Shown: positions 9,079-32,080 of the stretch, one piece after another
Layout of the letters: each line of letters opens with the position of its first letter
Numbering within the stretch: position 1 is the first letter of the stretch
Origin: a virus
DNA: 32,080 nt
IMG/VR virus record: IMGVR_UViG_3300015199_000013
Location: 1 to 32,080 of that record
Reading direction: 5' to 3' (one strand)
The notes under the pieces: model-generated
Told to the model about the DNA's origin: nothing
The model's database searches: none
The model's input: the letters and a program-made list of their open reading frames with translations, nothing else
Made by a program: the position numbers and the translations under genes

Positions 9079-9631
9079 CAGCTTCCGCCCCCCGAGACAG
9101 CCGCGATCTGGACGGTGGTCTGCGCGACGAGCGAGTCATGCTCCCACGGCGTCAGCTGTCGCATCTGCCACGCCTGGATGTGGAAGTAGTGGGCCATTGC
9201 GGGGTGCCAGTCGTCGCGCGGGTTGCGCGCGTACAGCCGGTCGATCTCGTCTGCGGTTAGACCGCGCCCTTTGGCTTTCGCGGCCGCCGACTCGTCGCGG
9301 GCGCCGCGGCGTCGGCGGCGGCCGCTGGGGGGCTCTGCTCGCCCTCCGCGGGTTCGTCGGCGACCGGGGTGCCGATGAAGTCGACGATGAGGTCGTCGAG
9401 GGTTTCCTGTCCGAGCGTTTCCGGGTCGAAGTCGACTTCGGCGCGGAGGAGAGACACGACCGCGAACCCGAGCGCCGTCTTGGAGTCGACGCCCATGAGC
9501 TGGCTTATCGCCATCTGGCCGACGCTGACCCCGGTGACACGTTCCGCGAACGCGGCCTCGTCGTACGTCCATGTGCCCATCTCCGCGAGCGGCACGACGG
9601 TGCCCTTGTACGTGACGGTCATCTTCCTCAC
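9078..9631 (-). CDS. Tail assembly chaperone, frameshifted long form (GT-like)
   Basis: The second frame (stop at 9078) encodes AAKAKGRGLTADEIDRLYARNP and about 45 further residues, with the helical WHPAMAHYFHIQAWQMRQLTPWEH block seen in the downstream half of siphophage chaperone pairs. It has no convincing start of its own. It lies in the -1 frame relative to the upstream chaperone gene, which contains two in-frame slippery heptamers before its stop at 9257. Translation starting at GTG 9631 and slipping -1 would produce a fusion of about 184 residues. In lambda and many siphophages G and GT together load tail tube subunits on the tape measure, and the placement just before the tape measure gene agrees. 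Confidence 0.8.
9257..9631 (-). CDS. Tail assembly chaperone, short form (G-like)
   Basis: A 124-residue protein. I chose GTG 9631 (VRKMTVTYKG) because GAGGAG lies 6 bases upstream; the ORF extends further to 9709 but that part crosses a strong hairpin and is arginine-rich. The body (TWTYDEAAFAERVTGVSVGQMAISQLMG, then LVSLLRAEVDF-type helices and LDDLIVDFIG) is the usual alpha-helical chaperone domain, followed by an Ala/Pro/Arg-rich linker. It sits between the tail tube and tape measure genes. Most ribosomes should end here at TAA 9257-9259, with a minority slipping into the downstream frame. Confidence 0.82.
   Translation of the reverse strand: MRKMTVTYKGTVVPLAEMGTWTYDEAAFAERVTGVSVGQMAISQLMGVDSKTALGFAVVSLLRAEVDFDPETLGQETLDDLIVDFIGTPVADEPAEGEQSPPAAAADAAAPATSRRPRKPKGAV
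9266..9332 (-). promoter_or_regulatory. Programmed -1 frameshift region with two candidate slippery heptamers
   Basis: In the zero frame of the G-like gene two sequences fit X XXY YYZ: C CCC CCA (9332 down to 9326) and A AAG GGC (9272 down to 9266), the latter seven codons-bases before the TAA stop. A -1 slip at either places ribosomes into the same downstream frame. The stop-proximal heptamer is the better match to position in other phages, while the C-run is a perfect homopolymer slip. Which is used cannot be told from sequence. Confidence 0.65.
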
Positions 9632-9651
9632 GGGTGACTCCTCTGTCGGTT

Positions 9652-9705
9652 GATTCCGCCGGAATCGGCGGGAAGCGCGCGGAGGGAGGTCGCGCTTCCC
9701 GCCGA
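9652..9705 (-). repeat. Strong hairpin pair between tail tube and chaperone genes
   Basis: Positions 9665-9679 and 9691-9705 are exact 15-bp reverse complements with an 11-base loop. Immediately downstream on the minus strand 9652-9666 forms a second near-perfect palindrome (7-bp arms, one central base). There is no long U tract. The element could be a partial terminator or mRNA stabiliser that separates abundant tail tube message from the chaperone and tape measure message. Confidence 0.6.
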
Positions 9706-9757
9706 CCATGCGGCGGCGCCCGCCGGAGCGGGCAAGGTGACGTGCAGCCGCACCGGG

Positions 9758-10708
9758 TTAGATCGCGGCGTCGGTGGTGGTGTAGACGGCCGTGATCGGC
9801 TCGGCCGCGCCGTTGTCGAGGACGGTGAACGGCGTCGGCGCGTCGAGGATCCCCGACTTCGCGGTGACGGGCTTCGGCCCCTCGAGCCGGCACGCCGGCA
9901 TCGTGACGGCGAGCGACCCGGTCGTCCCTGTCCAGGTGAACACAATCGGGAGGATCGTGTTCGCCGTGAAGAGCCCATAGGTGGTCCAGTCTTCGAACTC
10001 GCCCTCGAGGCTGCCGGTGACGGGGCTGGGGCCCTGCCAGAGCGGCTCCTTCTTCAGCGTCGACGACCGCGTGAAGTAGCGGGAGAGGTTGAGGTTGCGG
10101 TCGATCTTGAAGCTCGCGCTTCTCGGGTTGAACGCGGCCCCGTTGACGGTGATCGCGAGCTGCCCGTCGTGGAGCAGTTCCTGCGCGGCCGGGTACGACG
10201 CGGTGGCGAGGGTCTGGTTCGTGACGTCCTGGTTCGCGTCGACGCCGAGCTGCAGCTGCGCGTACTGGTCGAGCGCCTGCGAGATGGTGCCGTCGGTGAT
10301 CTTGCAGCCGTAGAAGTCGTGCGGCTGCACGACGATCGGGACGACGGAGCCGGGCTTGCCGATCTGCGTCGTCAGCGACAGACCGACGCCGTCTCCGAGC
10401 GTGAACGTGTGAACGTACGGGCCGACGCCGGTGATGACGGGTGCCTTTCCGAACAGGTGCTTGAGGATCATGCTGAACCCGTTGAGGCCGAGATCGAGGG
10501 TGATCGGGCCGTTCGCGCCCTTGTTCACGGCGGACTGGTTCGCGGAGCGCTGCACCTTGTAGCCCTTGCGGAGGCCGGCGCTGGCGCGGAAGTTCTCCTG
10601 GCGGCTGATGCCTTCGGAGACGAACTCGAGGAACCGGGTCGGAGCGACCCTGGTCCCATACACGGTCTCCTCGGCGAAGCCCGCTTGATTATCCTGAATG
10701 GTTGCCAT
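9758..10708 (-). CDS. Major tail protein (tail tube subunit)
   Basis: A 316-residue protein, ATG 10708 overlapping the previous stop by one base (TAATG) with GGAG 10 bases upstream. The N-terminus (QAGFAEETVYGTRVAPTRF then LEFVSEGI) is the classic opening of the tail tube family in actinophages, where 'GxxxExTYGTxxxPxxxxE' is conserved. The rest is beta-rich with GFSMILKHLFG, FYGCKITDGTISQ and a C-terminal Ig-like portion (PVTAKSGILDAPTPFTVLDNG). It polymerises as hexameric rings around the tape measure. Expression should be high, and a strong hairpin follows. Confidence 0.9.
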   Translation of the reverse strand: MATIQDNQAGFAEETVYGTRVAPTRFLEFVSEGISRQENFRASAGLRKGYKVQRSANQSAVNKGANGPITLDLGLNGFSMILKHLFGKAPVITGVGPYVHTFTLGDGVGLSLTTQIGKPGSVVPIVVQPHDFYGCKITDGTISQALDQYAQLQLGVDANQDVTNQTLATASYPAAQELLHDGQLAITVNGAAFNPRSASFKIDRNLNLSRYFTRSSTLKKEPLWQGPSPVTGSLEGEFEDWTTYGLFTANTILPIVFTWTGTTGSLAVTMPACRLEGPKPVTAKSGILDAPTPFTVLDNGAAEPITAVYTTTDAAI

Positions 10709-10965
10709 TAGTCGTCAGCTCCGTCCGCCGCGGCGGGGTCGTCGGTCTTCTTCTGGGCGGCCGCGGTCTGTTTCGGCGTCGCCTTGATCCACTGCGGCTG
10801 GTGCGTGGGGTCGTCGTCTGTGCTGTCTTGGCCCTGTTCGAGCAGGCCTTGTGCGATGTCGTCGGGGAAGTCGACGGGGGCGCCGTTGCGTTCGGCGATG
10901 TAGTCGCCGTAGAGGTCGGTGGGAACATCGACGGCCTCGTGCGGCCCGATATAGATCAGTTGCAT
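10708..10965 (-). CDS. Small acidic protein next to the tail tube gene
   Basis: An 85-residue protein, ATG 10965 with GGGAG about 7 bases upstream. The first ~45 residues (MQLIYIGPHEAVDVP then GAPVDFPDDIAQGLLEQ) resemble the short conserved N-terminal piece found in small proteins beside tail genes in actinophages. The rest is a low-complexity acidic, glutamine/lysine tail. It may assist connector or tail assembly, but no function is established from sequence. Confidence 0.75.
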   Translation of the reverse strand: MQLIYIGPHEAVDVPTDLYGDYIAERNGAPVDFPDDIAQGLLEQGQDSTDDDPTHQPQWIKATPKQTAAAQKKTDDPAAADGADD

Positions 10966-11022
10966 GGTTCGGCTCCCTTTCTCGAGGAAGTCGGTCGTTG
11001 GTGGGACATGGGGAAGAAGGGG

Positions 11023-11553
11023 TTAGGCGAGTTCGAGGCCGCAGTCGGCGGCGAGGAGCTCGAGGGCGTGCTGGACGGCCGGGACGAGGCGGGATTCGCC
11101 TTGGACGGCTGCCGGCCAGAGGAACGCGCGCGGCCCGACGTGGCCTTCGCCGATCCCGTGCTGCGCGATGAGGCGCGTCCCGATGGTGGAGCGGTTACGG
11201 ATCCGGACGCCGGACGACCACTGGTTTCCGCGGGTCACGGATCCGCCGTACTCGTAGATGGCGGGGTAGTTGAACCCGCCGGGGTAGGCAGGGCTCGAGC
11301 GTTGGGCGGTGTCGGTGATGTAGGCGTAGCTCGACCGCCAGCCGGCCTGGATCCGGTCGATGAGTTCGCCGGAGTCGTACAGGCCTTTCTCGCGTGCGAT
11401 GTAGACCGCGAACGAGGCCGCCTGCTTCGCGACGTCGACGAGCCGCTCGCGCAGCTTCGTCTTGATGCCGGACTGGAACTGGTCGAGGCCGGCCATGACC
11501 GCGGCGAGGCCCTCGACGGCGATCTCGCCGGTGATCGGTGCGTTGTCGGTCAT
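11023..11553 (-). CDS. HK97 gp10-like head-tail / tail completion protein
   Basis: A 176-residue protein starting at ATG 11553 with a one-base overlap (TGATG) to the tail terminator gene. The helical start (VEGLAAVMAGLDQFQSGI then KTKLRERLVDVAKQAA) and the YDSGELIDRIQAGW, PAIYEYGGSVTRG and RAFLWPAAV segments are typical of the HK97 gp10 family, which completes the head-tail joint. The gene order connector, gp10-like, terminator, tail tube is preserved here with gp10 and terminator swapped, as transcription reads connector, terminator, then this gene. Confidence 0.8.
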   Translation of the reverse strand: MTDNAPITGEIAVEGLAAVMAGLDQFQSGIKTKLRERLVDVAKQAASFAVYIAREKGLYDSGELIDRIQAGWRSSYAYITDTAQRSSPAYPGGFNYPAIYEYGGSVTRGNQWSSGVRIRNRSTIGTRLIAQHGIGEGHVGPRAFLWPAAVQGESRLVPAVQHALELLAADCGLELA

Positions 11554-11990
11554 CAGATCCGCTGCTCGGCGTGAACGGTGACGGTGAGGAGCGCGCCGCG
11601 CGCTTCGTTGCCGGCGAGCTCGACCAGGTCGACGGGCCCTTCGATCTGCGCGACGCGGACGGTGCCGGTCACGGTCGGGTCGGTGCGGAGCTGCGCCTCG
11701 AGCTCGCCCATCAGCGTGAAGGCGCGTTCGGTCGCGGTCTTCTGGTCGGCCGGCTGGACGCCGGACACTTCGGTCTTGATGAGGACGGTGAGCGAGAAGT
11801 CCTCTTCGCGGCTGCGGCGGCCCATCTGCGCGAGCTGCTGGCTGCCGCTCACGTCGGCGAGCCAGATGTACTCCGGCTCGGGGAGCGGGCCGGGGTAGCC
11901 GTAGCTGACCTGGACGCCGGTCAGGCCGGCGCGCGCCTGCAGCTGCGTCAGCAGGGCCGCCTTGAACGCCGGGATCGTGGAGGTCGACAA
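11553..11990 (-). CDS. Tail terminator protein
   Basis: A 145-residue protein. I place the start at TTG 11990 because GGAG lies 9 bases upstream and the codon follows the upstream TAA by two bases; an in-frame GTG at 12005 lacks a Shine-Dalgarno and would add five residues. The sequence (IPAFKAALLTQLQARAGLTGVQVSYGYPGP, split here by glycines, then EYIWLADV and RREEDFSLTVLI-like strands) is the alpha/beta fold of siphophage terminators that cap the tail tube and join it to the head. The end (LVELAGNEARGALLTVTVHAEQRI) is typical. Confidence 0.8.
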   Translation of the reverse strand: MSTSTIPAFKAALLTQLQARAGLTGVQVSYGYPGPLPEPEYIWLADVSGSQQLAQMGRRSREEDFSLTVLIKTEVSGVQPADQKTATERAFTLMGELEAQLRTDPTVTGTVRVAQIEGPVDLVELAGNEARGALLTVTVHAEQRI

Positions 11991-11992
11991 AG

Positions 11993-12646
11993 TTAGGCGC
12001 TCCACCGCGCGTAACGCTTGATGCGGTTGAGGGCGACGCGGGGGATGTCCCACGTCGCGGGCAGGGACGGCTGCACGCCGGGGTCGCCGCCGTGGAGGCC
12101 GCCGAGGTCGTTTCCGGGGTTTTGGCGGAGCCAGCTGCGGACCATGAGCACGACGACGCCGCGGACGTCGTTGTCGACGGTGTCGGTCGTCCACAGGCCC
12201 CAGTTGCCGGTGACGCGCAGCTGCGCGTACCCGAACCGGATCTCGAAGTTGCTGGTGAGGACGAGGTAGCGGCTGAGCCGGATCCGCTGGTAGCTGCCCT
12301 GCGCCGCAACGAACGGCTCGAGCGAGTAGTCCACGTTCGCGGCTAGCGCGATCGGGCTGGTCTGCTCCGGGTGAAGAGCGACGCTCGTTGCCGAGCGGAG
12401 ATCCCAGGGCGCGAGGTCGACGACAACTGAGCCGTCGACCTGGCGCGCCTGAGGATTGACCTGTACGACCCTGCTTACGCCGTCCGTGTGCGGTGCGAGC
12501 TCGCGCTCGAGCCGTCCCATGAGGGCAACGCTCGCGTCCGTTATCAGCGCTTGGATGATCGCGTCGCGCGAGCCGGTGCCCATCGTCGCCTCCGTGGAGG
12601 CTTTGACGTCGGCGAGCGTGCAGAGGTCGCGAGGGTCAGCAGCCAT
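11993..12646 (-). CDS. Head-tail connector protein (adaptor)
   Basis: A 217-residue protein from ATG 12646 with a TAATG one-base overlap. The N-terminus (MAADPRDLCTLADVKASTE then DAIIQALITDASVALMGRLERE) is the helical opening of gp6/gp15-type adaptors, which begin 'LCTLADVKxxL...D..I..LI..AS..I...'. The middle contains beta strands and a second helical pair at VRGVVVLMVRSWLRQNPG. It binds beneath the portal and forms the exit ring. The C-terminal RIKRYARW is a common ending. Confidence 0.82.
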   Translation of the reverse strand: MAADPRDLCTLADVKASTEATMGTGSRDAIIQALITDASVALMGRLERELAPHTDGVSRVVQVNPQARQVDGSVVVDLAPWDLRSATSVALHPEQTSPIALAANVDYSLEPFVAAQGSYQRIRLSRYLVLTSNFEIRFGYAQLRVTGNWGLWTTDTVDNDVRGVVVLMVRSWLRQNPGNDLGGLHGGDPGVQPSLPATWDIPRVALNRIKRYARWSA

Positions 12647-13020
12647 TAGGTCTGCATGGCTCCTTCGCGGAGGATCGTGCAGCCGTAGACGCCGCCGGTC
12701 GTGGCGCCGGCGACGGTGACGACCGCGCGGAGATACCGCCTGCGGCCCTTGTAACCGACGAACTGGTTGGTCGCGGACACGAGCGCCACGAAGGCGCCTT
12801 CGAGGTCGCCGGCGACGACGTCAGTCCACGTCGCGTTGTCGTCGCATTCCTGCAACTTCGGCGTGTGTGTGCCGTCGGTGATGACGCCGACGCTGACCAG
12901 GCAGATCGCGCCGTTGTAGCCGGCCAGATCCGTCGAGGCGCCGTTCGCGGTCGCGGTGCGCGCCTGCGGGGCAAGCGACGCGGCCTGGGCCGCCTTCTTC
13001 TTCGGGTTTCCACCACTCAT
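12646..13020 (-). CDS. Conserved capsid-region protein, possible head decoration
   Basis: A 124-residue protein starting at ATG 13020, where AGGAGAG lies 8 bases upstream; the longer ATG at 13077 has no such signal. After a lysine/alanine start come beta strands with DLAGYNGAICLVSVG, ITDGTHTPKLQECDDN, TWTDVVAGDLEGAF and KGRRRYLRAVVTVAG. This text recurs beside capsid genes in many phages as a conserved protein usually left unnamed, with features of an externally exposed beta-sandwich. A role as a capsid decoration or stabilising protein is a reasonable inference from location. Confidence 0.75.
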   Translation of the reverse strand: MSGGNPKKKAAQAASLAPQARTATANGASTDLAGYNGAICLVSVGVITDGTHTPKLQECDDNATWTDVVAGDLEGAFVALVSATNQFVGYKGRRRYLRAVVTVAGATTGGVYGCTILREGAMQT

Positions 13021-13114
13021 GTGGTTCTCTCCTGCCGGCCTACGAGGCCGCGTGGACGCGTCAGTGCGCTCTTCCACGGCGGCCGCGGCCGCCGGCTGTT
13101 CTTCGTGGGTGTGT

Positions 13115-13154
13115 CGGGAGAAGCCGTCCGCTCGTCGCGGTTCGGCTTCTCCCG
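13115..13154 (-). repeat. 12-bp perfect inverted repeat downstream of the small gene after capsid
   Basis: Positions 13115-13126 and 13143-13154 are exact reverse complements with a 16-base loop, in the 145-base gap between two leftward genes. The same gap holds an 18-bp palindrome at 13077-13094. No U tract follows on the minus strand, so it is not a canonical intrinsic terminator. It may attenuate transcription or protect 3' ends of capsid messages. Confidence 0.55.
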
Positions 13155-13165
13155 GTCTGGCTTGC

Positions 13166-13519
13166 TCACGCCTGGACGAGCTCCAGCAGCGCGGCCTTCT
13201 TCTCGGCGTTCGTGGTGACGTCGTCGGGGAACTCGAACCCGAGATCCGCGGCGATCGCGTCGAAGTCGGCGGCCTTCTTCGCCTTGCCGATCTTCTCTTC
13301 GACCGACAGCGGACCGTCGACGTCGTCGTCGCCGTCGACGTAGGCGTTGACAGCCGCGATCTCGGCGTTGACCTGCTTGATGCGGTTCTCGTACCGCTGA
13401 ACGCCGATCTCGTCTCCGGTCGTCTTGCAGGTCTCGATCTTCGCCTTGTAGCCGGCCTTCTCGTCCGCGAGCGCGGCGAGGTAGGTGGCGACCTGATCGG
13501 TGTTTCCGTAGTTGCTCAT
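13166..13519 (-). CDS. Helical protein downstream of the major capsid gene
   Basis: A 117-residue protein, ATG 13519, with an AGAGAGA-type purine run upstream. It is largely helical and charged (YLAALADEKAGYKAKIETCK, then YENRIKQVNAEIAAVNAYVD), followed by an acidic linker and a lysine/alanine helix. In actinophages a small helical protein often lies just downstream of the capsid gene and is of unknown function. It is bracketed by strong hairpins on both sides (13115-13154 and 13550-13580), which suggests separate dosage control. No domain was recognised. Confidence 0.75.
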   Translation of the reverse strand: MSNYGNTDQVATYLAALADEKAGYKAKIETCKTTGDEIGVQRYENRIKQVNAEIAAVNAYVDGDDDVDGPLSVEEKIGKAKKAADFDAIAADLGFEFPDDVTTNAEKKAALLELVQA

Positions 13520-13549
13520 GTTCTCGGGGTCTCTCTTTCTCGATCCCTA

Positions 13550-13580
13550 CGCGGGCGCCCCGGCTTGCGAGGCGCCCGCG
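13550..13580 (-). repeat. 10-bp stem-loop just after the major capsid gene
   Basis: Positions 13550-13559 and 13571-13580 are exact reverse complements with an 11-base loop, 14 bases beyond the capsid stop codon at 13594. Downstream on the minus strand the sequence is purine-rich rather than a U run. It could be a partial terminator or an mRNA end protector giving more capsid message than downstream message. Confidence 0.55.
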
Positions 13581-13593
13581 GTCACGGGAGTGG

Positions 13594-15111
13594 TTAGAAG
13601 CTCGGCGTCACCAGGCCCGTGCCACCGATGGTGCAGGTGGACGCCGGGAAGCGGCCGAAGGTCGCGGCGACGTACGCGTAGACCTGGAACCGGATACCGA
13701 GGCTGCCGGAGAGGATCTCCTTCAGCACGCGGACGTTCTGGTCTCCTTCGAACAGGAGGTGGTCGTTCATGACGGTCGCGACCATGATGTCCTGGTTCGT
13801 GCCGCCGCCGAGGTTCGTCGGGATGTTGAGGTCGAGGAACCACGGCACCGCGAGGATGTTCGTGGCCGGCCCGTCCTGGTTGACGTTTCCGTCTTGGATC
13901 CCGAGCGCGTTGTTCGGCCCGTTCGACGCCGGCACGAAGAACGGCCGGTTGTTCGCGTCGAGCTGAGATGCGGCCCACAGCCACCGCTGGCTGTGCGACC
14001 AGAACGCGTCCGGCATCTTCTTACGCGCGTTCGAGACGGTGTTGAGTGCTCCGGCCCACTTCGGCCAGATCTCCGGGATCGTCGGCGTCGCGTCGGTGTA
14101 GGTCACGGCACCGATCGAGCCGGTGTTGAGGATCCCGAGCAGCTGCCCGGCCGCTCCGGAGCCGTTCCACAGCTGCGTGTCGAGCTGCAGCGCGTAGTCG
14201 GCGAGGAGGTCGGCGAACATGATCTCGTCGAACGCGATCGGCGACTGGTCGAGCAGCTGCATCGAGCTGTCGATCTGGCCGGCGATCGTGCGCACGGGCG
14301 CCGATACCGTCGCCGTCGTCGGATCCTGTGCGGCGACGTTCTGGTTGTCACCCGTCTGGACGCCCGTCAGACCTCCGAGCGTGATGCGGGGGACATTGAT
14401 GTTGTCCGTGCCGGGCGGGAGCGGGATGTTGCGGAGTCGGTCCGCGAACGGCCGCCCTGCGCGCGCGTACGCGGCATATTCGTCGAGAAGCCAGATCGGC
14501 GGAACGAATTCGCCGCCGCTGCCGTCGACGCGGTTGATGGCGCGACGCTCTACGCCGCGCTTCTCGGCGAGGTTGATGCCCGAGCGCTGAAGTGCGCGAG
14601 CGACGTCAGGCGACGTGCGCTCGAGCTCCTCGACGAGGTTCTCAAGCTCGCGGTTGAAGCTGCGCTCGCGTACGTCGCGGCGTTCCTTCAGCTCGATGTC
14701 GGACTCGCGGCGGTGCGCCTCGAGCCGGGAGCGTGCGCCTGCGAGATCCTGGCCCTTGCCGAACTCGTGCCGGGCGAGGTCGAGCAGGAACGACCGCTTG
14801 CCGTCCGGGCCGCCGTGCCGCTCGTACGTGAGGGGCTCGCGGGTGACCTGGATCGGTGCTGGAGCGACGTCCTCGTTGCGGGCGCGGAAGATCCGCTCCT
14901 CCTGCTTGAGAACGTCCTTCGCCTCAGCGACGCGCACGTCGGCCTCGTCGAAAGCGCGCTCGAGCTCGGCGAGCTGCTCGTCGGTCGTGTCGGCCTTCTC
15001 GCGGGCCTCGGCGAATGCCGTGGCAGCGGTCTTGCGCTGCTCGCGTGCCTCGTCGTGCGCGGCGCGGGCAGCCTTCAACTTCGGAGTCTCCTCCGTCAGC
15101 ATGATGCTCAT
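13594..15111 (-). CDS. Major capsid protein, HK97 fold
   Basis: A 505-residue protein, ATG 15111 with AGGAG 9 bases upstream. Residues 1-80 form a charged coiled coil (KLKAARAAHDEAREQRKTAA, then LAELERAFDEADVRVAEA), the delta/scaffolding domain normally removed by the prohead protease, and a second charged helical stretch runs to about 185. The capsid body follows: GGEFVPPIWLLDEYAAYARAG, FADRLRNIPLPPGTDNINVPR, QVDxSxQLLDQSP-like QIDSSMQLLDQSP, and the C-terminal LFEGDQNVRVLKEILSGS then RFQVYAYVAATFGRFP. These are hallmark HK97 capsid motifs. It forms the icosahedral shell. Confidence 0.95.
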   Translation of the reverse strand: MSIMLTEETPKLKAARAAHDEAREQRKTAATAFAEAREKADTTDEQLAELERAFDEADVRVAEAKDVLKQEERIFRARNEDVAPAPIQVTREPLTYERHGGPDGKRSFLLDLARHEFGKGQDLAGARSRLEAHRRESDIELKERRDVRERSFNRELENLVEELERTSPDVARALQRSGINLAEKRGVERRAINRVDGSGGEFVPPIWLLDEYAAYARAGRPFADRLRNIPLPPGTDNINVPRITLGGLTGVQTGDNQNVAAQDPTTATVSAPVRTIAGQIDSSMQLLDQSPIAFDEIMFADLLADYALQLDTQLWNGSGAAGQLLGILNTGSIGAVTYTDATPTIPEIWPKWAGALNTVSNARKKMPDAFWSHSQRWLWAASQLDANNRPFFVPASNGPNNALGIQDGNVNQDGPATNILAVPWFLDLNIPTNLGGGTNQDIMVATVMNDHLLFEGDQNVRVLKEILSGSLGIRFQVYAYVAATFGRFPASTCTIGGTGLVTPSF

Positions 15112-15138
15112 TGCGTTGGTTCTCCTCTGACCGTGTGG

Positions 15139-16071
15139 TCAGTCGTCGTCGTTGGCGATGCGTATCCGCATCGCGGTGGCGGTACGAGCCCGCTGGTCGT
15201 CCGCTACGGGCTCCGGAGGCGTCTCCGCGGCCGGAACGTCCTCGGCCGGTTCGGGGGGCGTCTCGTCGCCTGCGGTCGGTGCGGGTGGTTCGATGCCCGG
15301 CTCGTCGCCGCGACGCTCGAGGAGGCCCGCCAGGTTAACCCCGGCGCGACCGAGCACTCCCGTGAGGGAACGCATCGCCAGCTCAGCCGACGTCTGCGGG
15401 TACGCGCCCTGCGCGCAGACCGCGGTGTCGTAGAGCTGGCCGATCTCAAGAATGGTGCGAAGCTCGTCCTCGAAGTCGTTCTCGTCGACGGTCGAGTCGT
15501 ACTGAGCACGCGCGATCGTGAACGCGAAGCTCATCTGGTCGACGATGCCGCGGTTCATCTTCGCGGCGAGCGACACGACGTCGGGGTCGGCCGGGTCGAG
15601 ACGCGCGAACACGCGCAACCCCTCGTCGTCGGAGCTGAGCTCGAGGCCGCCGACGCCGTCGACGTTCGTGCGCGCGATCGCGCGGGTCATGTCGTGGCCG
15701 ATGTTCAGGTGAACGTCCGGGCTGGTGGCGAGGACGGTGTCGAACGCGCCGGGCGCGATGACCTCGCGGAGCCGCCACCACGAGCCGTCGTACAGGATCG
15801 TTTCCTGGTCGTAGACGGCGGCGTACCCGGTGAGGGTGAAGCTGCCGTCGCCGGTGCCGGACGCGTCACGGAACTCGACGTCGCGGAACCGGACGAGTGC
15901 GTGGCGGGCTTCCACGACGCCGGCGGCGTCGAGGAGGGCGCTGTTCGTGGTCGCGTCGCCGCGTGCGAGCGCGGTCGTTTCGACGATCGCGTTGGGCGCG
16001 AGGCCGAGGCTGCGGATTTGCGCCTGCATGCGGCGGCGCTCCGCGAGGACTGCGGAGTCGAGGTTGCTCAA
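15139..16071 (-). CDS. Prohead (capsid maturation) protease, family S78
   Basis: A 310-residue protein starting at TTG 16071 with AGGAG 9 bases upstream. The domain begins near residue 60 with TLTGYAAVYDQ and WWRLREVIAPGAF. His126 in LNIGHD and Ser181 in VDQMSFAF are the expected catalytic histidine and serine of the HK97 protease, with the acidic residue probably in the FARLDPADPD segment. It cleaves the capsid delta domain during maturation. The C-terminal 80 residues are rich in proline and acidic residues, and the first 55 residues are helical. It sits between portal and capsid genes, as in HK97. Confidence 0.92.
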   Translation of the reverse strand: MSNLDSAVLAERRRMQAQIRSLGLAPNAIVETTALARGDATTNSALLDAAGVVEARHALVRFRDVEFRDASGTGDGSFTLTGYAAVYDQETILYDGSWWRLREVIAPGAFDTVLATSPDVHLNIGHDMTRAIARTNVDGVGGLELSSDDEGLRVFARLDPADPDVVSLAAKMNRGIVDQMSFAFTIARAQYDSTVDENDFEDELRTILEIGQLYDTAVCAQGAYPQTSAELAMRSLTGVLGRAGVNLAGLLERRGDEPGIEPPAPTAGDETPPEPAEDVPAAETPPEPVADDQRARTATAMRIRIANDDD

Positions 16072-16083
16072 GGTCGTGTTCTC

Positions 16084-17334
16084 CTAGCCGCTGTCGGCTG
16101 GGTCGCTGTTGTCGCCGGCGCCAGGGTTCGGGGCGCCGCCGACCGGGGTGATGAGGAGCTTGTCCGCGTCGGGGTCGCTGCTGCGAGGTAGGTTGACCAT
16201 CGCGCGGCCTTCGTTCGCGGTCATGACGCCGACCTGCTTGAGGCTGTGGATCATGGACGCGATCGTCGTGATGTCTCCCCGGCGGAGCTCGTCGACGTCG
16301 AAGCGGGCGTAGCGGCGAGCGCCGCGGCCAGTCGTCGGGAACAGGTCGGGGTCTGCGCTGACCGCGCGCTCGATCCGTCGCATGCGGTGGAGGAGGCTGA
16401 AGCGGAGGAAGATGTCGGCCCACAGCTCTGCGCTCTTCGGCGGCTGCGGCCGGCCGATAGCGGCATGGACGAGCTCGGCCGGGAAGATCCGCCACATGCG
16501 CGCGACGTCGAGCGCGACGAGGTTGGAAAGCTCGACCGCCTGCGAGTCCTGGAGGGTCGGCGCGAGCTGCGTGACGCTCTTGACGTCGCCCCAGATCAGG
16601 CCGGGCTTGCCGGGCTGGCCGGAGTGGCGCGCCATCCACGAGTTGAGCAGCTCCTCCCGCTGGATGCCGGTCGGAAATGCGCCGCTGGCGTCGAGGACGA
16701 TGCCGGGGCTGCCGTCGTTGTCGAAGTAGCGGCCGCGGTACTCCTCGAGCTTGTTCGCGTTGTCGAGCGGGGTGCGGTGCAGCTCGAGCTTCGACAGGCC
16801 GGTGGCGGCGCCAGGCATCGGCGACCAGCCCTTGATGAAGATCACCTGGTCGGTGACGTCCGTGACCTGGCCGTCGACTCTCGCTTTAATCACGCGCGGC
16901 GCGTTCGTCTTCGGCCGGTCGACCATGAACAGGCGCGGATCCATCGGCACCATCTCCAGCACCTGCCGGCTGCCGCGCGACGTGCGGTCGACGTTCTTCC
17001 ACACGAACGCGCCCTGCTCGAGCTCGATCGACGTGCTGACGTCGCACCAGAGATCGAAGCTCGTGTCGCCTTCGGCGGGGTCCTGCAAGATCGCGGCCTG
17101 CGGCGCGTTCAACACGAGCTCCCGCTCCGAGGCGTCGCCCTGGTAGACGCGCATGACGGGGATCCCGAGCGACTCGGAGACGAGCTGGACAGCGCACGCG
17201 ACCGCTGCGACGCCGAGCTGCTGCGCGCGCAGCGCGGTCCCGGACAGCGACATCTTCGAGCCGGGCGGCGGGATCAGCGCCGAAGCCTCGAACAGGCGAA
17301 GCTCGCGGTCGCCCTGGCGGCTGGAGAGGATCAC
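16084..17334 (-). CDS. Portal protein (HK97 type)
   Basis: A 416-residue protein starting at GTG 17334, overlapping the upstream stop as GTGA. Family features include VAAVACAVQLVSESLGIPVMR, the EQGAFVWKNVDR strand, VIFIKGWSPM with LSKLELHR, and the C-terminal helical PAELVHAAIG then ELWADIFLRFSLLHRMRRIERAVSADPDLFP, followed by the D-rich clip. The portal forms the dodecameric DNA entry ring. It ends in an acidic proline/glycine tail. The placement between terminase and prohead protease is canonical. Confidence 0.93.
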   Translation of the reverse strand: MILSSRQGDRELRLFEASALIPPPGSKMSLSGTALRAQQLGVAAVACAVQLVSESLGIPVMRVYQGDASERELVLNAPQAAILQDPAEGDTSFDLWCDVSTSIELEQGAFVWKNVDRTSRGSRQVLEMVPMDPRLFMVDRPKTNAPRVIKARVDGQVTDVTDQVIFIKGWSPMPGAATGLSKLELHRTPLDNANKLEEYRGRYFDNDGSPGIVLDASGAFPTGIQREELLNSWMARHSGQPGKPGLIWGDVKSVTQLAPTLQDSQAVELSNLVALDVARMWRIFPAELVHAAIGRPQPPKSAELWADIFLRFSLLHRMRRIERAVSADPDLFPTTGRGARRYARFDVDELRRGDITTIASMIHSLKQVGVMTANEGRAMVNLPRSSDPDADKLLITPVGGAPNPGAGDNSDPADSG

Positions 17335-17609
17335 AGCTGCGCGTCCTCGACGAGGATCTCACGGAAGAACACGCTCGCGACCGGGACCTCGTAGACCGTG
17401 CCGCGCGGCGTGTCCTCGACGCTCTGAGTCGAGTCGACGACACGCGGCCGCTCGAGGACGTAGTGCGGACCGGCGAGCGTGTCCACGACCCCCGTGAGGA
17501 GCCCCTCGAACGTCATGTCGATCTTGCCGCCCGGCCCGATCGCCTGCAGCCGAACGAATCTCGCCGGCGGCGGTGGCGGTGGCGGAGTCTTCTTCGTGAA
17601 CCAACCCAT
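17331..17609 (-). CDS. Small hypothetical protein between terminase and portal
   Basis: A 92-residue protein starting at ATG 17609 (one-base overlap with the terminase stop) and ending on a GTGA overlap with portal. It opens MGWFTKK followed by a run of seven prolines, then a compact beta-rich domain (ARFVRLQAIGPGGKIDMTF, then VDTLAGPHYVLERPRVV). No recognised domain. The polyproline stretch would slow ribosomes without EF-P and could affect the expression of the coupled portal gene, but this is inference. Confidence 0.7.
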   Translation of the reverse strand: MGWFTKKTPPPPPPPARFVRLQAIGPGGKIDMTFEGLLTGVVDTLAGPHYVLERPRVVDSTQSVEDTPRGTVYEVPVASVFFREILVEDAQL

Positions 17610-19423
17610 CAGCCTGCGCCTCCCTGGAACGTTTCGGTGGAGTTTTTGCCCGTTTCCGGGGCGTCGACTGCGACTGCGAAGCCGCCCGCGAACCCGTCGG
17701 TACGGGCGTTCAGGGCGCGCCAGGCGGCCATCACGGACGCGGTTGCGGCGTCGATGGGGAAGTCGCGGCCGGGCTTGTCGATCTTGTCGAACTCCTTCGT
17801 GCCGACCATCGACGTGACACCGACGCAGTTGCCGAGATGGCGGGCGAGTACTTCGTCGCCGTCGTGCGCCCACGTGGCCTCGTCGACACCCTTGCGGAAG
17901 GCGCGGACAGCGTCCTTCATATCGTTCGAGTTCGGGTGCATCGGCGCGATCGTGAAGCCGGCCCGGGCGAGGTGGTTGGCCTCGGTCACGAAGTACTGGT
18001 CGTCGAACACGATCTCGCGGATGCGGTAGTCGCGGGCGAGGTCGTGGATGTACGGCTCGACGAGTTCCTCGTTGCGGAGGATCGTGTCGCGCACGTGAAC
18101 ATGCGCCGGCTTCGCCGGGTTCGTGGACCAGACCTTCGCTTTCAGATGGATCCGGCCGTTCGGGCCGCGCCAGCCGTAGACGACGGCGGTGCAGTCGCCG
18201 CTGTAGGCCGCGTCGATGCCGACGAAGATCTCCGCGCCTAGCGGAGCCTGAGCCAGGTCGGTTAGACCGGCCCAGGCCCCGCGAGGCAGCCAGGGGCGCA
18301 GGCCGCGCGTCGGCTGGTTCATGTGCAGCCGACGCCAGGCGCCCTCGTCGGCGCCGGGCCTGTGCAGAAGAGCGATGATCGCTTTCGGGTCGAGCGTCGA
18401 GAGCGGGTTGCAAGCGCGGACGAGCGCGGGGTTCTCGATGTCGCGGTCGTCGTCCTCGGGCAGCCCGTACCAGTGCATGAGCGTGCCGGAGTCCTCGTCT
18501 TCGAGGATCGCGAGGCACCCGTCGCGGGAGACGCGCAGCTTCGGGTGGTTCATCGCGGCCTGGTGGAACTCGGCCAGCATCGTCCCGTAGTCGAAGTACG
18601 CCTGCGAGATCGCGACCATCCACGACTCCGGGTGCCGCTTCTGCAAGGCCTCGCTGATCGCGTTGAATCCCTCGCGCTGGTGGGGGTGCTTGAACTGCCA
18701 CCACTCGTCGACGATGCCGGCGCTCGGGTTGATGCCGTGCGCGTTGAAGCCCTCCGACGACAGCAGCGAGTACTCGCCGTCGGTGTCGGGGCACCGGATC
18801 ATCTCGGCGCTCTTCTTCAGGAACCGGCCGAGGTCGCCGTCCTTCATCGACTTGTCGATGAACTTGTGCGCGAAGCCGGCCTGCGACTTCGCGCCGGCGA
18901 TCCCGAACACCTCCGGCACGTCATCGATCGGCGGATCCATGAGCGCGTTCACGCCGAGCACCGCCGCGATCGGCGTCTTGCCGTTCCCCTTAGGGATCCC
19001 GTACAGCCCGAACGTGTAGACGCGGCCGCCAGACGGATGCCGCCGCCAGAACGGACGGATGAAATCCTCCTGGAAACCCTCAAGCCTGAACGGCTTCCCG
19101 GCGCGCGCGCCGGCGTAGTGGCGAAAGAACCGCGGGAAGAAGTTGACGACCCGGTCAGCGCTCCGCGGCGGACCCAGCGTCTGCAGCAGCTCAGGGAGAC
19201 TCTTCCTGGTCCGCGCCTGCTTGTGATGGAGCTCCGGGATCGCATTGGCGAAATCGCGGGCGAAGCGACGACGCGCGAGGTCTTGGCTGGCGTCCTTGTA
19301 AGCCTGCTGAATGACGGAGAGCGTCTTCCAAGGGACGAGCGGGCCGTCGAGCATCTGCCGATGCCGCTCAACGCGAAAGGTGCCGTCACGGATGAGCTCG
19401 CGAAGATCTTTCTGCCTAGACAC
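17609..19423 (-). CDS. terL: Terminase large subunit
   Basis: A 604-residue protein. I start at GTG 19423, two bases after the upstream stop; further upstream extension is serine/arginine-rich shadow. ATPase: Walker A at residues 142-150 (GIPKGNGKT), Walker B at 237-240 (IVDE) with the following WWQFKHP. Nuclease: Asp404 in VGIDAAYSGD, acidic pair 474-475 in IVFDDQYF, and Asp558 in DFPIDAATA fit the RNaseH-like metal ligands. It packages DNA through the portal. This is the Terminase_1-like family of siphophages. No gap or frameshift is seen. Confidence 0.95.
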   Translation of the reverse strand: MSRQKDLRELIRDGTFRVERHRQMLDGPLVPWKTLSVIQQAYKDASQDLARRRFARDFANAIPELHHKQARTRKSLPELLQTLGPPRSADRVVNFFPRFFRHYAGARAGKPFRLEGFQEDFIRPFWRRHPSGGRVYTFGLYGIPKGNGKTPIAAVLGVNALMDPPIDDVPEVFGIAGAKSQAGFAHKFIDKSMKDGDLGRFLKKSAEMIRCPDTDGEYSLLSSEGFNAHGINPSAGIVDEWWQFKHPHQREGFNAISEALQKRHPESWMVAISQAYFDYGTMLAEFHQAAMNHPKLRVSRDGCLAILEDEDSGTLMHWYGLPEDDDRDIENPALVRACNPLSTLDPKAIIALLHRPGADEGAWRRLHMNQPTRGLRPWLPRGAWAGLTDLAQAPLGAEIFVGIDAAYSGDCTAVVYGWRGPNGRIHLKAKVWSTNPAKPAHVHVRDTILRNEELVEPYIHDLARDYRIREIVFDDQYFVTEANHLARAGFTIAPMHPNSNDMKDAVRAFRKGVDEATWAHDGDEVLARHLGNCVGVTSMVGTKEFDKIDKPGRDFPIDAATASVMAAWRALNARTDGFAGGFAVAVDAPETGKNSTETFQGGAG

Positions 19424-19424
19424 A

Positions 19425-19613
19425 TCAGCTGCCGCTCTTGCGCTTCGCGTCGCGCCACGTCGTGATGTCGGCCGGGTCGACCCGCCGCGCCGCGCGCAGC
19501 TTCTTCCGCCTGGCCAGCTTCTTCCGCTGCAACCGCCGCTGCTCCGCCGCGAGCCGCTCGCTGGCACACGAATCCCACTTCTTGCGCCGCAGATCGTGAC
19601 GCTGGCCGGCCAT
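19425..19613 (-). CDS. Small basic protein upstream of terminase
   Basis: A 62-residue protein, ATG 19613 with GGAG 10 bases upstream and a stop (TGA 19425-19427) that lies next to the terminase GTG. Highly basic (KKW, RLQRKKLARRKKLRAARR) and largely helical. It could be a packaging accessory, DNA-binding peptide or a partial relic, but no family was recognised. The convergent plus-strand gene begins 33 bases upstream. Confidence 0.55.
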   Translation of the reverse strand: MAGQRHDLRRKKWDSCASERLAAEQRRLQRKKLARRKKLRAARRVDPADITTWRDAKRKSGS

Positions 19614-28423: not shown

Positions 28424-28615
28424 GTGACGGGCGGCGAGCAAGAGCTCATCGAAGACCTCGCTCGCGCCGTCGGGCTCGCCGTCCGCGCGCTCACGCACGT
28501 CGAGCACGCACTTCGACAGATGACGCCGGCTCCTCAAGCAGCTCGAGCGCGGCCGCCGCTTCAGCTCGTGCCACCTCCAGATTCGCAAGCTGCTCAGCCG
28601 GAACAAGCAGGCTGA
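28424..28615 (+). CDS. Doubtful small ORF convergent with repressor
   Basis: A 63-residue frame from GTG 28424. The first 30 residues look coding (EQELIEDLARAVGLAVRALT then HVEHALRQM) and use G/C-ending codons, and this stretch has no gene on the other strand. The rest lies antisense to the repressor 3' end and is proline/alanine-rich. No ribosome binding site. An alternative is non-coding sequence downstream of the repressor. Confidence 0.3.
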   Translation: MTGGEQELIEDLARAVGLAVRALTHVEHALRQMTPAPQAARARPPLQLVPPPDSQAAQPEQAG

Positions 28616-28898
28616 GTTTCGCGTCGATCCCGGCGAGCAGATCCTCGATCGCGGCCAGCCGCTCGAGCGTCGTCTGCTCTTCCTCGTCGTCGCCGCGTAA
28701 GAACCACTCGACGGGACGTCCAAGGATCTTCGAGAGCTCACGCATCTGGCGGTACGGAATGACCTCGCCGCGCTCGTAGTTTTGGAGCGACCTCGTCGAG
28801 AACGGCGCGAGCTCGGCGAGCTGTTCCTGGGTAAGCCCAGCCTCCCGGCGGGCTAGCGCGATCCGGGCTCCGATCTCCTTGGCCTCGAACTGCGCCAT
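28491..28898 (-). CDS. XRE-family phage repressor
   Basis: A 135-residue protein from ATG 28898. HTH at about residues 10-66: IGARIALARREAGLTQEQLA, then FSTRSLQNYERGEVIPYRQM and LSKILGRPVEWFLRGD, the pattern of lambda-repressor-like proteins. The rest is an acidic coiled coil (ERLAAIEDLLAGIDAKLSLL) likely for dimerisation. There is no LexA-type peptidase domain, so induction would not follow RecA-dependent self-cleavage. No good Shine-Dalgarno is seen (TTCCTTCTC upstream), so initiation may be weak. Divergent from the Cro-like gene, it is the probable lysogeny repressor. Confidence 0.85.
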   Translation of the reverse strand: MAQFEAKEIGARIALARREAGLTQEQLAELAPFSTRSLQNYERGEVIPYRQMRELSKILGRPVEWFLRGDDEEEQTTLERLAAIEDLLAGIDAKLSLLVPAEQLANLEVARAEAAAALELLEEPASSVEVRARRA

Positions 28899-28943
28899 GA
28901 GAAGGAACCTACGGAACTCACTGCTCCGTGTCGCCGCAGTTTC

Positions 28944-28972
28944 TTGCGTTGTCGTCTGTCTGCGCATAAGTT
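28944..28972 (+). promoter_or_regulatory. Candidate rightward promoter (P-R like)
   Basis: TTGCGT (28944-28949), 17-base spacer, TAAGTT (28967-28972). Predicted start about 28979, with a 60-base leader to the Cro-like gene, whose GTG has an ideal AGGAGG. Confidence 0.55.
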
Positions 28973-29040: not shown

Positions 29041-29232
29041 GTGAACGAAGACCTCGGAGGACGGATTCGGCGGGTGCGCGAGCGCCGCGTCTTGACCCAG
29101 GAAGAGGCCGCGGCAGAGCTCGGTTTCCCTGTCCGCTCGCTTCAGTCGTACGAAGCCGGCCGGACGCCGAGGCAGGCGCGTCGCCGGGTTCTTCTCGCGT
29201 GGCTCCAACAGCACGAGGCGGCCGCGGCGTGA
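29041..29232 (+). CDS. Cro-like XRE regulator
   Basis: A 63-residue protein from GTG 29041 with AGGAGG 3-4 bases upstream. Pure HTH domain: GGRIRRVRERRVLTQEEAAA, then LGFPVRSLQSYEAG and RRVLLAWLQQH. Its recognition-helix text (RSLQSYEAG) closely parallels that of the divergent repressor (RSLQNYERG), so both probably bind the same operators, as CI and Cro do. First gene of the rightward operon, coupled by GTGA to the next gene. Confidence 0.82.
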   Translation: MNEDLGGRIRRVRERRVLTQEEAAAELGFPVRSLQSYEAGRTPRQARRRVLLAWLQQHEAAAA

Positions 29233-29402
29233 GCGACGAGCACGTGATCGCTCTCGCTGTTGTCGGGAGTCTCGGCGCGCTCGCGCTCGGGCTGGCGCTG
29301 GCGGGCGCGGTGCAGCATGTCGCGTGGTGGCTGGCTGATGAGGGGCGTCGGCGGCGGGCGCGGCGTCGCCACGGCTATCTGTCTACGGGGGGGGTGCGGT
29401 GA
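29229..29402 (+). CDS. Small membrane protein
   Basis: A 57-residue protein from GTG 29229 (GTGA overlap). One hydrophobic helix (VIALAVVGSLGALALGLALAG, about residues 6-26), then AVQHVAWWLADEG and a very basic tail (RRRRARRRHG). Type II or III single-pass membrane protein of unknown role in the early rightward operon. Confidence 0.65.
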   Translation: MSDEHVIALAVVGSLGALALGLALAGAVQHVAWWLADEGRRRRARRRHGYLSTGGVR

Positions 29403-29962: not shown

Positions 29963-30814
29963 CTAGCGCGTCGTTGCCGTCGTTTTGCGCGGTCGGCGGC
30001 GGGCGGGAGCGGCTTTGACGCTGCGTTTGAGGGTGGCGGCGAGGTCGACGGTCGGCGGCCGGTCGGCGGGTTCCTGGTGCTGCTTCACGGCGGGCCGGCT
30101 GATGGGCTTTCCGGCGAGGAGCCGTTCGCGCAGCTCGAGCATGCGTGGGCGCTCGCGGCTGGCGAGATCGATGTCCGGGTTGAGCGGCCGGGTGTGCCGG
30201 TAGACGAGCTGCCGGGTCAGATCGAGGAGGTGGTCGCTGACGGTTCGTGTCTCGGCGTCGACGCCGAGGTCCGCGGCGAGCTGCCACGGGTCGTCGTGGA
30301 CGAGGTCTTCGCCGAAGTAGAGGATCGCGAGGTCGAGCAGTCCTGCGTGGCTGCCGATTGCTGCGATCTTTTCGCCGCGCCAGGTGAACCGGACGATGCC
30401 GGCGACGTCGAGCTCGGCGATCGCGCACACGAGGAGGCAGTAGGCGTCGAATCCGATCGGGCTCGACGGGACGAGGTGGTAGTGCTTCTTGACGAGGCGC
30501 GGGTCGATCGCCGCCGCCGGCGTGAAGCACTCGATCGGGATTCGACGCGTCTCGGGTTCCTTGACCGCGCTGAGGTCGTCCGCGCTGGGCGTCTGATAGC
30601 CGCCGCCCGGGGCAATCTCGAACGCGCGGATCAGCTCTTCCGGCTCGAGCAGCTTCTCGTGCAGCTGGCAATACGGCCGGAGGCTGATCGGGGTCTCACA
30701 CGCGGCGTGGAGCGTCCGCAGCTCGGTCTCGTGCTCGCGGACGGCGGTCGCGATCCCGACGGGGATGACGAGTTCGCCGAGCTCGAGTGTGCCGTTCCAC
30801 AGCGTCCTCTCCAT
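29963..30814 (-). CDS. ku: Ku family DNA end-binding protein
   Basis: A 283-residue protein, ATG 30814 with GAGG 5 bases upstream. It matches bacterial Ku along its length: RTLWNGTLELGELVIPVGI at the start (SIWNGxISFGLVxIPV in hosts), LHAACETPISLRPYCQ, EELIRAFEIAPGGGY, IPIECFTPAAAIDP, KKHYHLVPSSPIGFDAY, VGIVRFTWRGEKIAAIG and LYFGEDLV. A basic tail (RRRPRKTTATTR) ends it, as in host Ku. Ku dimers encircle DNA ends and recruit LigD for end joining. Some mycobacteriophages use a phage Ku with host LigD to close genomes with short cohesive ends. No ligase is in the window. It is on the minus strand in a rightward region, an island. Confidence 0.92.
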   Translation of the reverse strand: MERTLWNGTLELGELVIPVGIATAVREHETELRTLHAACETPISLRPYCQLHEKLLEPEELIRAFEIAPGGGYQTPSADDLSAVKEPETRRIPIECFTPAAAIDPRLVKKHYHLVPSSPIGFDAYCLLVCAIAELDVAGIVRFTWRGEKIAAIGSHAGLLDLAILYFGEDLVHDDPWQLAADLGVDAETRTVSDHLLDLTRQLVYRHTRPLNPDIDLASRERPRMLELRERLLAGKPISRPAVKQHQEPADRPPTVDLAATLKRSVKAAPARRRPRKTTATTR

Positions 30815-30840
30815 CTCAACCTCGACCTTAGCCTTAGCCG

Positions 30841-31044
30841 ATGACGGAGCAACTCGATCGCGAGCGGGTCTCGGACGTGGCCGCGGTCTGCGACCTCTTC
30901 CTGACCCTCAGCCCGCAGGTCCGGATCGCGACAGCTGTCGATGTGATCTGCGACTTCGAGGGGATCCCTTCCGACTTTGAGCGGCGCACGATCCGCCGGC
31001 TCCTCGAGCACCGCCTCGACGAAGAGATGGGGATGGCGGCGTGA
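30841..31044 (+). CDS. Small helical protein upstream of the replication initiator
   Basis: A 67-residue protein from ATG 30841, divergent from Ku with only 26 bases between. Helical (VSDVAAVCDLFLTLSPQVRI, then FERRTIRRLLEHRLDEEM). No ribosome binding site and no obvious promoter; a short CCTTAG repeat lies just upstream. It is coupled to the next gene by GTGA. May partner the initiator. Confidence 0.62.
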   Translation: MTEQLDRERVSDVAAVCDLFLTLSPQVRIATAVDVICDFEGIPSDFERRTIRRLLEHRLDEEMGMAA

Positions 31045-31916
31045 GCGTCCGTGTGATGAACGAGGTGTTCGAGCGGTCGATGTCGACGGCTGTGACGCGG
31101 CTGGTGTTGTTGGCGATCGCGGATCAGGCGAGCGACGACGGTGTGGCGTGGCTGCCGGTCGATTCGGACGAGTCGGAGAAGAAGACGATCGCGAAGAAGG
31201 CGCGCTGCTCGCGCGCGACGGCGTTCAGGGCGATCGAGTCGCTCGTCGAAGCGGGCGAGTTGCAGGTCGTGAAGGTCCGGCGTGGGAGGTCAACGATCAG
31301 CGTCTACCGGGTCGTCGTGGGGCGCATTTCGCGCGTGCCGGTGGACTACGACCGGCTGCCGTTCGACCTTCCGCACCCGTTTGGTTCACCGTCTCATTTT
31401 GAGACGGTGGCCACGGTCTCATCTGAGACGGTTCAGGGTCTCAAATCTGAGCGTTCAGGGTCTCAATCTGCGATTTCTGTCCTATCTATAGATCTTGATC
31501 CGTTAGTAGATCCATTAGAGATCCAGGGGCAGCACCCAGAAATTGGGGAAGGCGACCCCGATCCGCGCCTTCTCGCGATGAGGCTCGTCTCGAACAATCG
31601 AGGCGTCCGGGCGTGGCTTCGGAACGCGGGCCATCACTACGCCGAATCGCCGCGTGACTTCGCCTCGGAAGCACTCGAGGTGCTCGGCGCGCGCGACGGG
31701 ACGATCGTCGAGGAGTACCGGCAGTTCGCCGCGGCCGACACGCCGCGGCAGGCGTACGAGCGGTGGATCGACGAGACCACGGATCTTCCGCTCGACGAGA
31801 TCTCCGCGGTCATCAAGACGTGGGACGACCTCGACGACGTCGAGCGGCAAGAGCTCCTCGAGCGTGCCGAGCACGTCCGCGCGGCTACCGGGCCAGGGAA
31901 GCGGGCCGCGGCGTGA
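31041..31916 (+). CDS. Winged-helix replication initiator (O/DnaD-like)
   Basis: A 291-residue protein from GTG 31041 (GTGA overlap). Residues 5-95 form a winged helix (AVTRLVLLAIADQASDDGVAW, split by context, then IAKKARCSRATAFRAIESLV and LQVVKVRRGRSTISVYRV) of the HTH_36 phage replication type. Residues about 115-165 are low-complexity and coincide with the GTCTCA repeats and A+T-rich DNA. The C-terminal 110 residues are helical (MRLVSNNRGVRAWLRNAGHH, then EISAVIKTWDDLDDVERQEL). The layout of DNA-binding domain, origin-coding linker and helicase-loader-type C-terminus matches lambda O. Confidence 0.8.
   Translation: MSVRVMNEVFERSMSTAVTRLVLLAIADQASDDGVAWLPVDSDESEKKTIAKKARCSRATAFRAIESLVEAGELQVVKVRRGRSTISVYRVVVGRISRVPVDYDRLPFDLPHPFGSPSHFETVATVSSETVQGLKSERSGSQSAISVLSIDLDPLVDPLEIQGQHPEIGEGDPDPRLLAMRLVSNNRGVRAWLRNAGHHYAESPRDFASEALEVLGARDGTIVEEYRQFAAADTPRQAYERWIDETTDLPLDEISAVIKTWDDLDDVERQELLERAEHVRAATGPGKRAAA
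31389..31525. other. Candidate replication origin: GTCTCA iterons plus A+T-rich tract
   Basis: Four GTCTCA elements occur at 31392, 31417, 31439 and 31461. The first is in a 9-bp perfect inverted repeat (31389-31397/31401-31409) and the second in a 6-bp palindrome (31417-31430). The third and fourth belong to 22-base direct repeats starting GTTCAGGGTCTCAA. They are followed by about 45 A+T-rich bases (31474-31519) with repeated GATC motifs, in a genome otherwise rich in G+C. All lie inside the initiator gene. Confidence 0.7.
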
Positions 31917-32080
31917 CGTCGCTCTTCGTCGCTGACGCCGTCTTCGCGCTCGCGCTGGTCGCCGGCGCCGTCGCGTGGCGCCGCACGTCACGGCAGACGA
32001 AGCAGGCCGCGCGCCCGACGGCTCCGGTTCGGCCCTACCGGCCGGAGCCGTCGCTGGCAGGCAGCGACGCCCCGATGGTG
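31913..32080 (+). CDS. Partial gene at the right edge: membrane protein start
   Basis: GTG 31913 overlaps the initiator stop as GTGA and the frame stays open to the window end (56 codons). The visible part has one hydrophobic helix (SLFVADAVFALALVAGAVAW) then a basic, proline-rich stretch (RRTSRQTKQ). The remainder lies outside the window. Confidence 0.6.
   Translation, partial: MTSLFVADAVFALALVAGAVAWRRTSRQTKQAARPTAPVRPYRPEPSLAGSDAPMV

Follow-up and report, generated by a model that had tools for sequence, protein, structure and literature searches.

A predicted replication origin within the O-like initiator gene of a phage contig, and a candidate code linking initiator helix to iteron bases

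The initiator gene and its surroundings

The window analysed here is an entire IMG/VR virus contig (32,080 bases). It carries an O-like replication initiator gene whose start codon overlaps the stop of the ORF at 30841-31044; only 164 bp of the contig follow this gene, and neither a helicase gene nor a loader gene (P in lambda, next to O) is seen there. The gene and the domains of its product are as follows:

31041-31916, + strand: O-like replication initiator gene, GTG start, 291 aa (PHROG profiles, tblastn)
31041-31316, + strand: winged-helix DNA-binding domain, residues 1-92 (AlphaFold pLDDT mostly above 90)
31212-31253, + strand: recognition helix, residues 58-71 (AlphaFold helix; covariation with iteron class)
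Within SRATAFR, residues 57-63: putative specificity residues A59 (h3), F62 (h6) and R63 (h7) (covariation with iteron class)
31317-31562, + strand: disordered linker, residues 93-174 (pLDDT mostly below 50), whose DNA holds the predicted origin
31563-31889, + strand: C-terminal helical domain, residues 175-283 (AlphaFold only, modest confidence)

Assignment of the protein rests on its N-terminus. In profile searches residues 1-98 matched PHROG 391 (E 5e-11), 4617 (E 1e-10) and 8540 (E 7e-10), and tblastn found approximately 35% identity over the N-terminal domain and winged helix to protein O of the E. coli mEp phages. Foldseek placed the winged helix among winged-helix proteins that include the plasmid initiator and Rep-DNA entries 4pt7 and 5kbj, with weak E-values, and also among models of viral protein O. 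HTH_36 (PF13730) was matched at E 7e-4 and 19.8 bits, under the gathering threshold of 25, and RepA_N (PF06970) was absent from the Pfam matches at E values up to 1. The protein did not match TIGR01610 (phage_O_Nterm), a model that lambda O itself matches at E 5e-39, and no profile similarity between the two proteins was detected. These profile matches place it in the O-like PHROG 391/4617 group and outside lambda's own O family. Full-length protein searches found almost no relatives, because the linker and C-terminus diverge.

Elsewhere in the window, structural genes (terminase, portal, capsid) occupy 5746-19567 on the - strand. The terminase is 26-28% identical to those of phages of Streptomyces (phiC31, phiBT1, TG1) and Pontimonas, and also of gut Firmicutes; these matches lend weak support to an actinobacterial host, and on sequence grounds it is plausible to call the genome actinophage-like. 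A repressor-like XRE-type HTH gene (28491-28967, - strand) and a divergent small HTH-like frame (29042-29233, + strand) lie upstream of the initiator and are a possible lysis-lysogeny switch region. Between these and the initiator, 29963-30814 (- strand) encodes a Ku-like protein, matched by Pfam Ku (E 7e-19), by PHROG 4873 and, at 123 bits against a cut-off of 150, by NCBIfam Ku_bact; its other matches in the phage collection come nearly all from mycobacteriophages at about 24% identity.

Iterons and an A+T-rich tract in the linker DNA

Motif search of the window located GTCTCA on the + strand at 31391, 31416, 31438 and 31460, and its reverse complement, TGAGAC, at 31400 and 31424, so that six copies are packed into 75 bp of the initiator gene. 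They form four iterons, two of which are perfect, followed directly by an A+T-rich tract:

31391-31405, + strand: iteron 1, GTCTCATTTTGAGAC, an exact hyphenated palindrome, GTCTCA-TTT-TGAGAC
31416-31429, + strand: iteron 2, GTCTCATCTGAGAC, an exact palindrome with a 2-nt hyphen, GTCTCA-TC-TGAGAC
31438-31453, + strand: iteron 3, GTCTCAAATCTGAGCG, imperfect right arm TGAGCG
31460-31474, + strand: iteron 4, GTCTCAATCTGCGAT, imperfect right arm TGCGAT
31463-31522, no strand assigned: candidate unwinding element, GC content 36.7%, the contig mean being 67.9%

Iteron starts are 25, 22 and 22 bp apart, and the hyphens are 3, 2, 4 and 3 bases long, against 3 in most carriers of the motif. GTCTCA is not enriched across the contig (10 copies found, 17 expected), so the clustering is local, and no paired GTCTCA palindrome occurs in the rest of the contig. 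Shuffling yielded no exact GTCTCA palindromes in 100 trials, and in 5000 synonymous-codon permutations of the gene no 6-mer occurred more than five times in a 100-bp stretch, where the gene itself has six copies; a test for an iteron cluster right after the winged helix gave p 0.005 for the window. The four + strand copies fall in codon phases 2, 0, 1 and 2, and as all three reading frames are used, selection has acted on the DNA and not on the peptide. No other 60-mer of the 32-kb contig is as A+T-rich as the tract at 31463-31522, which lies directly 3' of the iterons; such a tract is evident in the window, and not in every GTCTCA carrier. Several AGATC/GATCC repeats at 31483-31523 are possibly 11-13-base unwinding repeats.

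The original prediction had placed four GTCTCA repeats, two of them palindromic, and a following A+T-rich tract in the linker region of a winged-helix initiator gene, and this description is borne out by the motif positions, the base composition and the AlphaFold layout of winged helix, disordered segment and C-terminal helices. It had also described two 22-base direct repeats. A repeat at a 22-bp period is indeed present; its exact match, however, is confined to a 14-nt block, GTTCAGGGTCTCAA, at 31431-31444 and 31453-31466, and ungapped 22-mers at that period are identical at only 10-16 of 22 positions.

Recognition helix and iteron sequence across relatives

Relatives were gathered by two routes, one led by the DNA motif and one blind to it. 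The first scanned viral contigs for a palindrome plus a further half-site, with no protein information used, and found the motif inside an ORF with the O-like profile at 24 of 122 loci among the matches listed, the profile having been built from eight sequences that include the window and one of those 24 (L005). Among listed loci with an O-like ORF, 24 of 25 carry the motif inside that ORF and one does not, and a control motif of the same composition fell inside an O-like ORF at 0 of 91 listed loci. In bacterial genome contigs the motif lies mostly outside initiators (inside them at 5 of 119 loci among the matches listed), and is thus not diagnostic alone. A GTCTCA carrier has between 3 and 18 half-sites, most of which start 21-25 bp from the next, a spacing like that of the annotated lambda iterons, and the hyphen is usually of 3 bases; some carriers have a gene for DnaB helicase, an AAA+ (IstB-type) ATPase or Prim-Pol downstream. 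The linker of one initiator with the helix SRATIFR (locus L029, from 5180 on) mixes GTCTCA and GTATCA iterons, and its sequence suggests tolerance at the first variable base.

The motif-blind relatives were drawn from bacterial genomes (alignment searches), named phages and 80 viral loci listed from single-protein queries, and lambda O was included as a positive control when repeats were tested. Repeats cluster more than in codon-permuted controls in 38 of the 56 with a domain score of at least 45 bits, and in 36 of these 38 (hence 36/56) a significant cluster lies right after the winged helix; the other 18 have no significant cluster by this simple 6-mer test. In most motif-blind relatives the linker repeats stand at the same place with other sequences (GTGTCA, GTGACA, GTGCA/GTGAA, TGCCA or GCCTAC). 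The suggestion that homologous genes be searched for iterons, relatives without repeats counting against an origin, has thus found clusters retained in a majority, and the accompanying idea that this genome uses an iteron sequence of its own agrees with the different iterons of most blind relatives, while GTCTCA itself recurs in O-like initiators of other phages, found by DNA motif alone.

Iteron type follows the recognition helix of the gene that carries it. With residues numbered from S57 (SRATAFR being h1-h7), the signature [SG][RK]A[TS]x[FYH]R is present in 13 of 18 non-redundant GTCTCA members among the matches listed (the window, 8 of 13 motif-led members and all 4 found through a helix-bearing relative) and in 0 of 73 motif-blind non-carriers; the GTCTCA members are mostly motif-found, and the motif-blind signature set is four sequences from a helix-bearing parent. 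Among listed GTCTCA carriers 17 of 18 lack R at h3 (non-R3) and 18 of 18 have R at h7 (R7). In the mEp-type family and other phage relatives, R3 with R7 accompanies GTGACA (9/10), and R3 without R7 accompanies GTGCA/GTGAA (16/16), with p values of 3e-6 and 2e-7.

An out-of-sample scan of viral contigs for the GTGACA dyad found it inside an O-like ORF at 69 of 120 loci among the matches listed; the non-redundant carriers among these matches, 44 of them new, have both R3 and R7 in 45 of 45 cases, and in the cross-class test 15 of 15 GTGCA/GTGAA carriers are R3 and non-R7. R3 divides 1/18 for GTCTCA from 45/45 for GTGACA (p 2e-14), and R7 divides 63/63 in these two classes from 0/15 in GTGCA/GTGAA. 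Ranked by mutual information over 70 domain columns, h3 and h6 discriminate best between GTCTCA and GTGACA, and of 78 columns h7 ranks first at telling GTGACA from GTGCA/GTGAA. When GTCTCA is set against GTGCA/GTGAA, h7 shares its rank with several other columns, an outcome to be expected should descent also distinguish these two sets. The class test within a small blind genome set (7 genes) was not significant.

Many of the iterons fit a 15-bp frame, GT-abc-N5-c'b'a'-AC, formulated on the same data that it describes, in which R7 accompanies C as the third variable base. This agreement between helix residues and iteron bases is suggestive of a recognition code spelled out separately in each gene. 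We consider it quite probable that the O-like initiators of many phages share this frame as a dyad for docking and read abc through h3, h6 and h7, such that A3 with F/Y/H6 and R7 would specify CTC (GTCTCA, the class of the window), R3 with R7 GAC, and R3 with non-R7 GCA or GAA, domain and iterons moving and switching as a unit. As each gene carries its own binding site, initiator specificity and competition between origins would, if the code is true, be predictable from sequence alone. Searches of the open-access literature yielded no description of GTCTCA iterons or of a recognition code of this kind.

The association might instead reflect shared ancestry only, with no reading of bases by the helix, and the tree contains too few well-supported independent pairs for a sign test to reach significance. 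We regard this as unlikely: carriers are diverse, the median identity being 29% among GTCTCA members and likewise among GTGACA members; the R3 association survives clustering at 45% identity (13/14 non-R3 vs 27/27 R3, p 8e-10); a partial Mantel test controlling for the rest of the domain gave p 0.001; and in the pairs L450/L438 and L440/L441, which are 83-84% identical outside the helix, residue 7 and the iteron differ together.

The origin reading and its known parallels

The segment 31389-31525 is best read as the replication origin of the window phage, predicted to be embedded in the reading frame that encodes its initiator, with a probability of roughly 0.9. What is seen directly comprises the repeats and their spacing, the A+T tract, the predicted domain layout, recurrence in relatives and the tracking of iteron bases by helix residues; from these a mechanism can be proposed in which the winged helix at the N-terminus, which probably dimerises, would bind the four GTCTCA-type iterons, and the bound array would melt the A+T-rich tract on its 3' side. 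The C-terminal domain would then contact the replicative helicase or its loader and recruit it, as judged from lambda and relatives. A disordered linker is tolerant and so able to carry such a DNA signal.

Palindromic sites for a winged helix would also suit a regulator, and with an XRE gene nearby they could be operators at which the initiator or the XRE repressor (28491-28967) controls transcription and not the start of replication. This is very unlikely, as the sites lie inside the gene and not at a promoter, no promoter match was found at 30700-32080, the rest of the contig lacks a paired GTCTCA palindrome, and the iteron type goes with the recognition helix encoded beside it; autoregulation may nevertheless accompany origin function. 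Still less credible is an action as RNA, through hairpins in the initiator mRNA that serve as terminator or translational control: folding of the segment is more stable than that of shuffled versions (z -3.7), but such a score is expected of any inverted repeat, neither a T run nor a terminator match occurs at the segment, no Rfam family matches, and RNA offers no explanation for the spacing of about 22 bp or for covariation with DNA-binding helix residues 3, 6 and 7. A linker peptide repeated through protein-level selection would fit the position in the linker, and can be dismissed since the three frames encode different peptides and close protein relatives carry different DNA repeats.

Origins embedded in initiator genes are textbook knowledge for lambda and for RepA_N plasmids, and the window locus alone is a further example of this arrangement. 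In lambda, dimers of O on four iterons form the O-some (PMC3985674; PMC7466680). As in the window, its hyphenated-dyad iterons (starts 20, 24 and 23 bp apart in the annotation of NC_001416, against 25, 22 and 22) and A+T-rich side tract lie in the initiator gene between the regions for N-terminal DNA-binding and C-terminal domains; the lambda iteron is ATCCCTCAAAACGAGGGA (PMC7466680), against GTCTCA-N3-TGAGAC here. The predicted lambda-like arrangement with its own iterons stands as to embedded iterons, A+T tract and approximate 22-bp spacing, and does not extend to membership of the lambda O family. An embedded window origin working in the manner of the lambda ori is supported, and the PHROG O-like group and lambda O may have either a distant common ancestor or converged on embedded origins. 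An apparent resemblance between the lambda iteron core (CTCAAAACGAG) and GTCTCAAAATGAGAC was set aside, lambda O having no detectable sequence relation.

Outside phages, the closest structural and organisational parallel is with the RepA_N plasmid initiators of pSK41 and with pPR9, which share a winged-helix N-terminus, an origin within the linker of the rep gene and a helical C-terminus, and differ in being plasmids with other iterons; the window protein matches HTH_36 only below threshold. The origin of the pSK41 initiator lies in a dispensable central linker, and pPR9 is an HTH (pfam13730) chimera in which N-terminal domain and origin were swapped together for a phage-like version that replicates autonomously (PMC5703833).

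The wider result is the weightier one, in that each gene holds both a key (the recognition helix) and a lock (the iterons), so that public sequence amounts to a large paired data set for the winged-helix recognition code. Direct tests thereby become possible of origin specificity, of the incompatibility among phages, satellites and plasmids, and of how new origin specificities evolve; origins in uncultured phages can be sought by locating the winged helix and then reading the linker.

Arthrobacter phage KellEzio gp40 and Mesorhizobium phage vB_MseS-P1 gp27 belong to the same N-terminal family and have linker repeats by inspection, which differ from those of the window (CGTCA and GGTGAC, respectively). 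The O-like initiators of E. coli mEp021, mEp044 and mEp554 (PHROG 391/4617), with about 35% winged-helix identity to the window, also carry linker repeats, and differ in their iterons, which are GTGTCA in mEp554 and GTGGCA-type in mEp021. These last two initiators are nearly identical, and a wholesale replacement of GTGTCA-type by GTGGCA-type iterons is accompanied by few differences in the recognition helix (ISKS to INKS, ECE to QCE), such that mEp554 and mEp021 appear from their sequences to be a natural specificity-switch pair.
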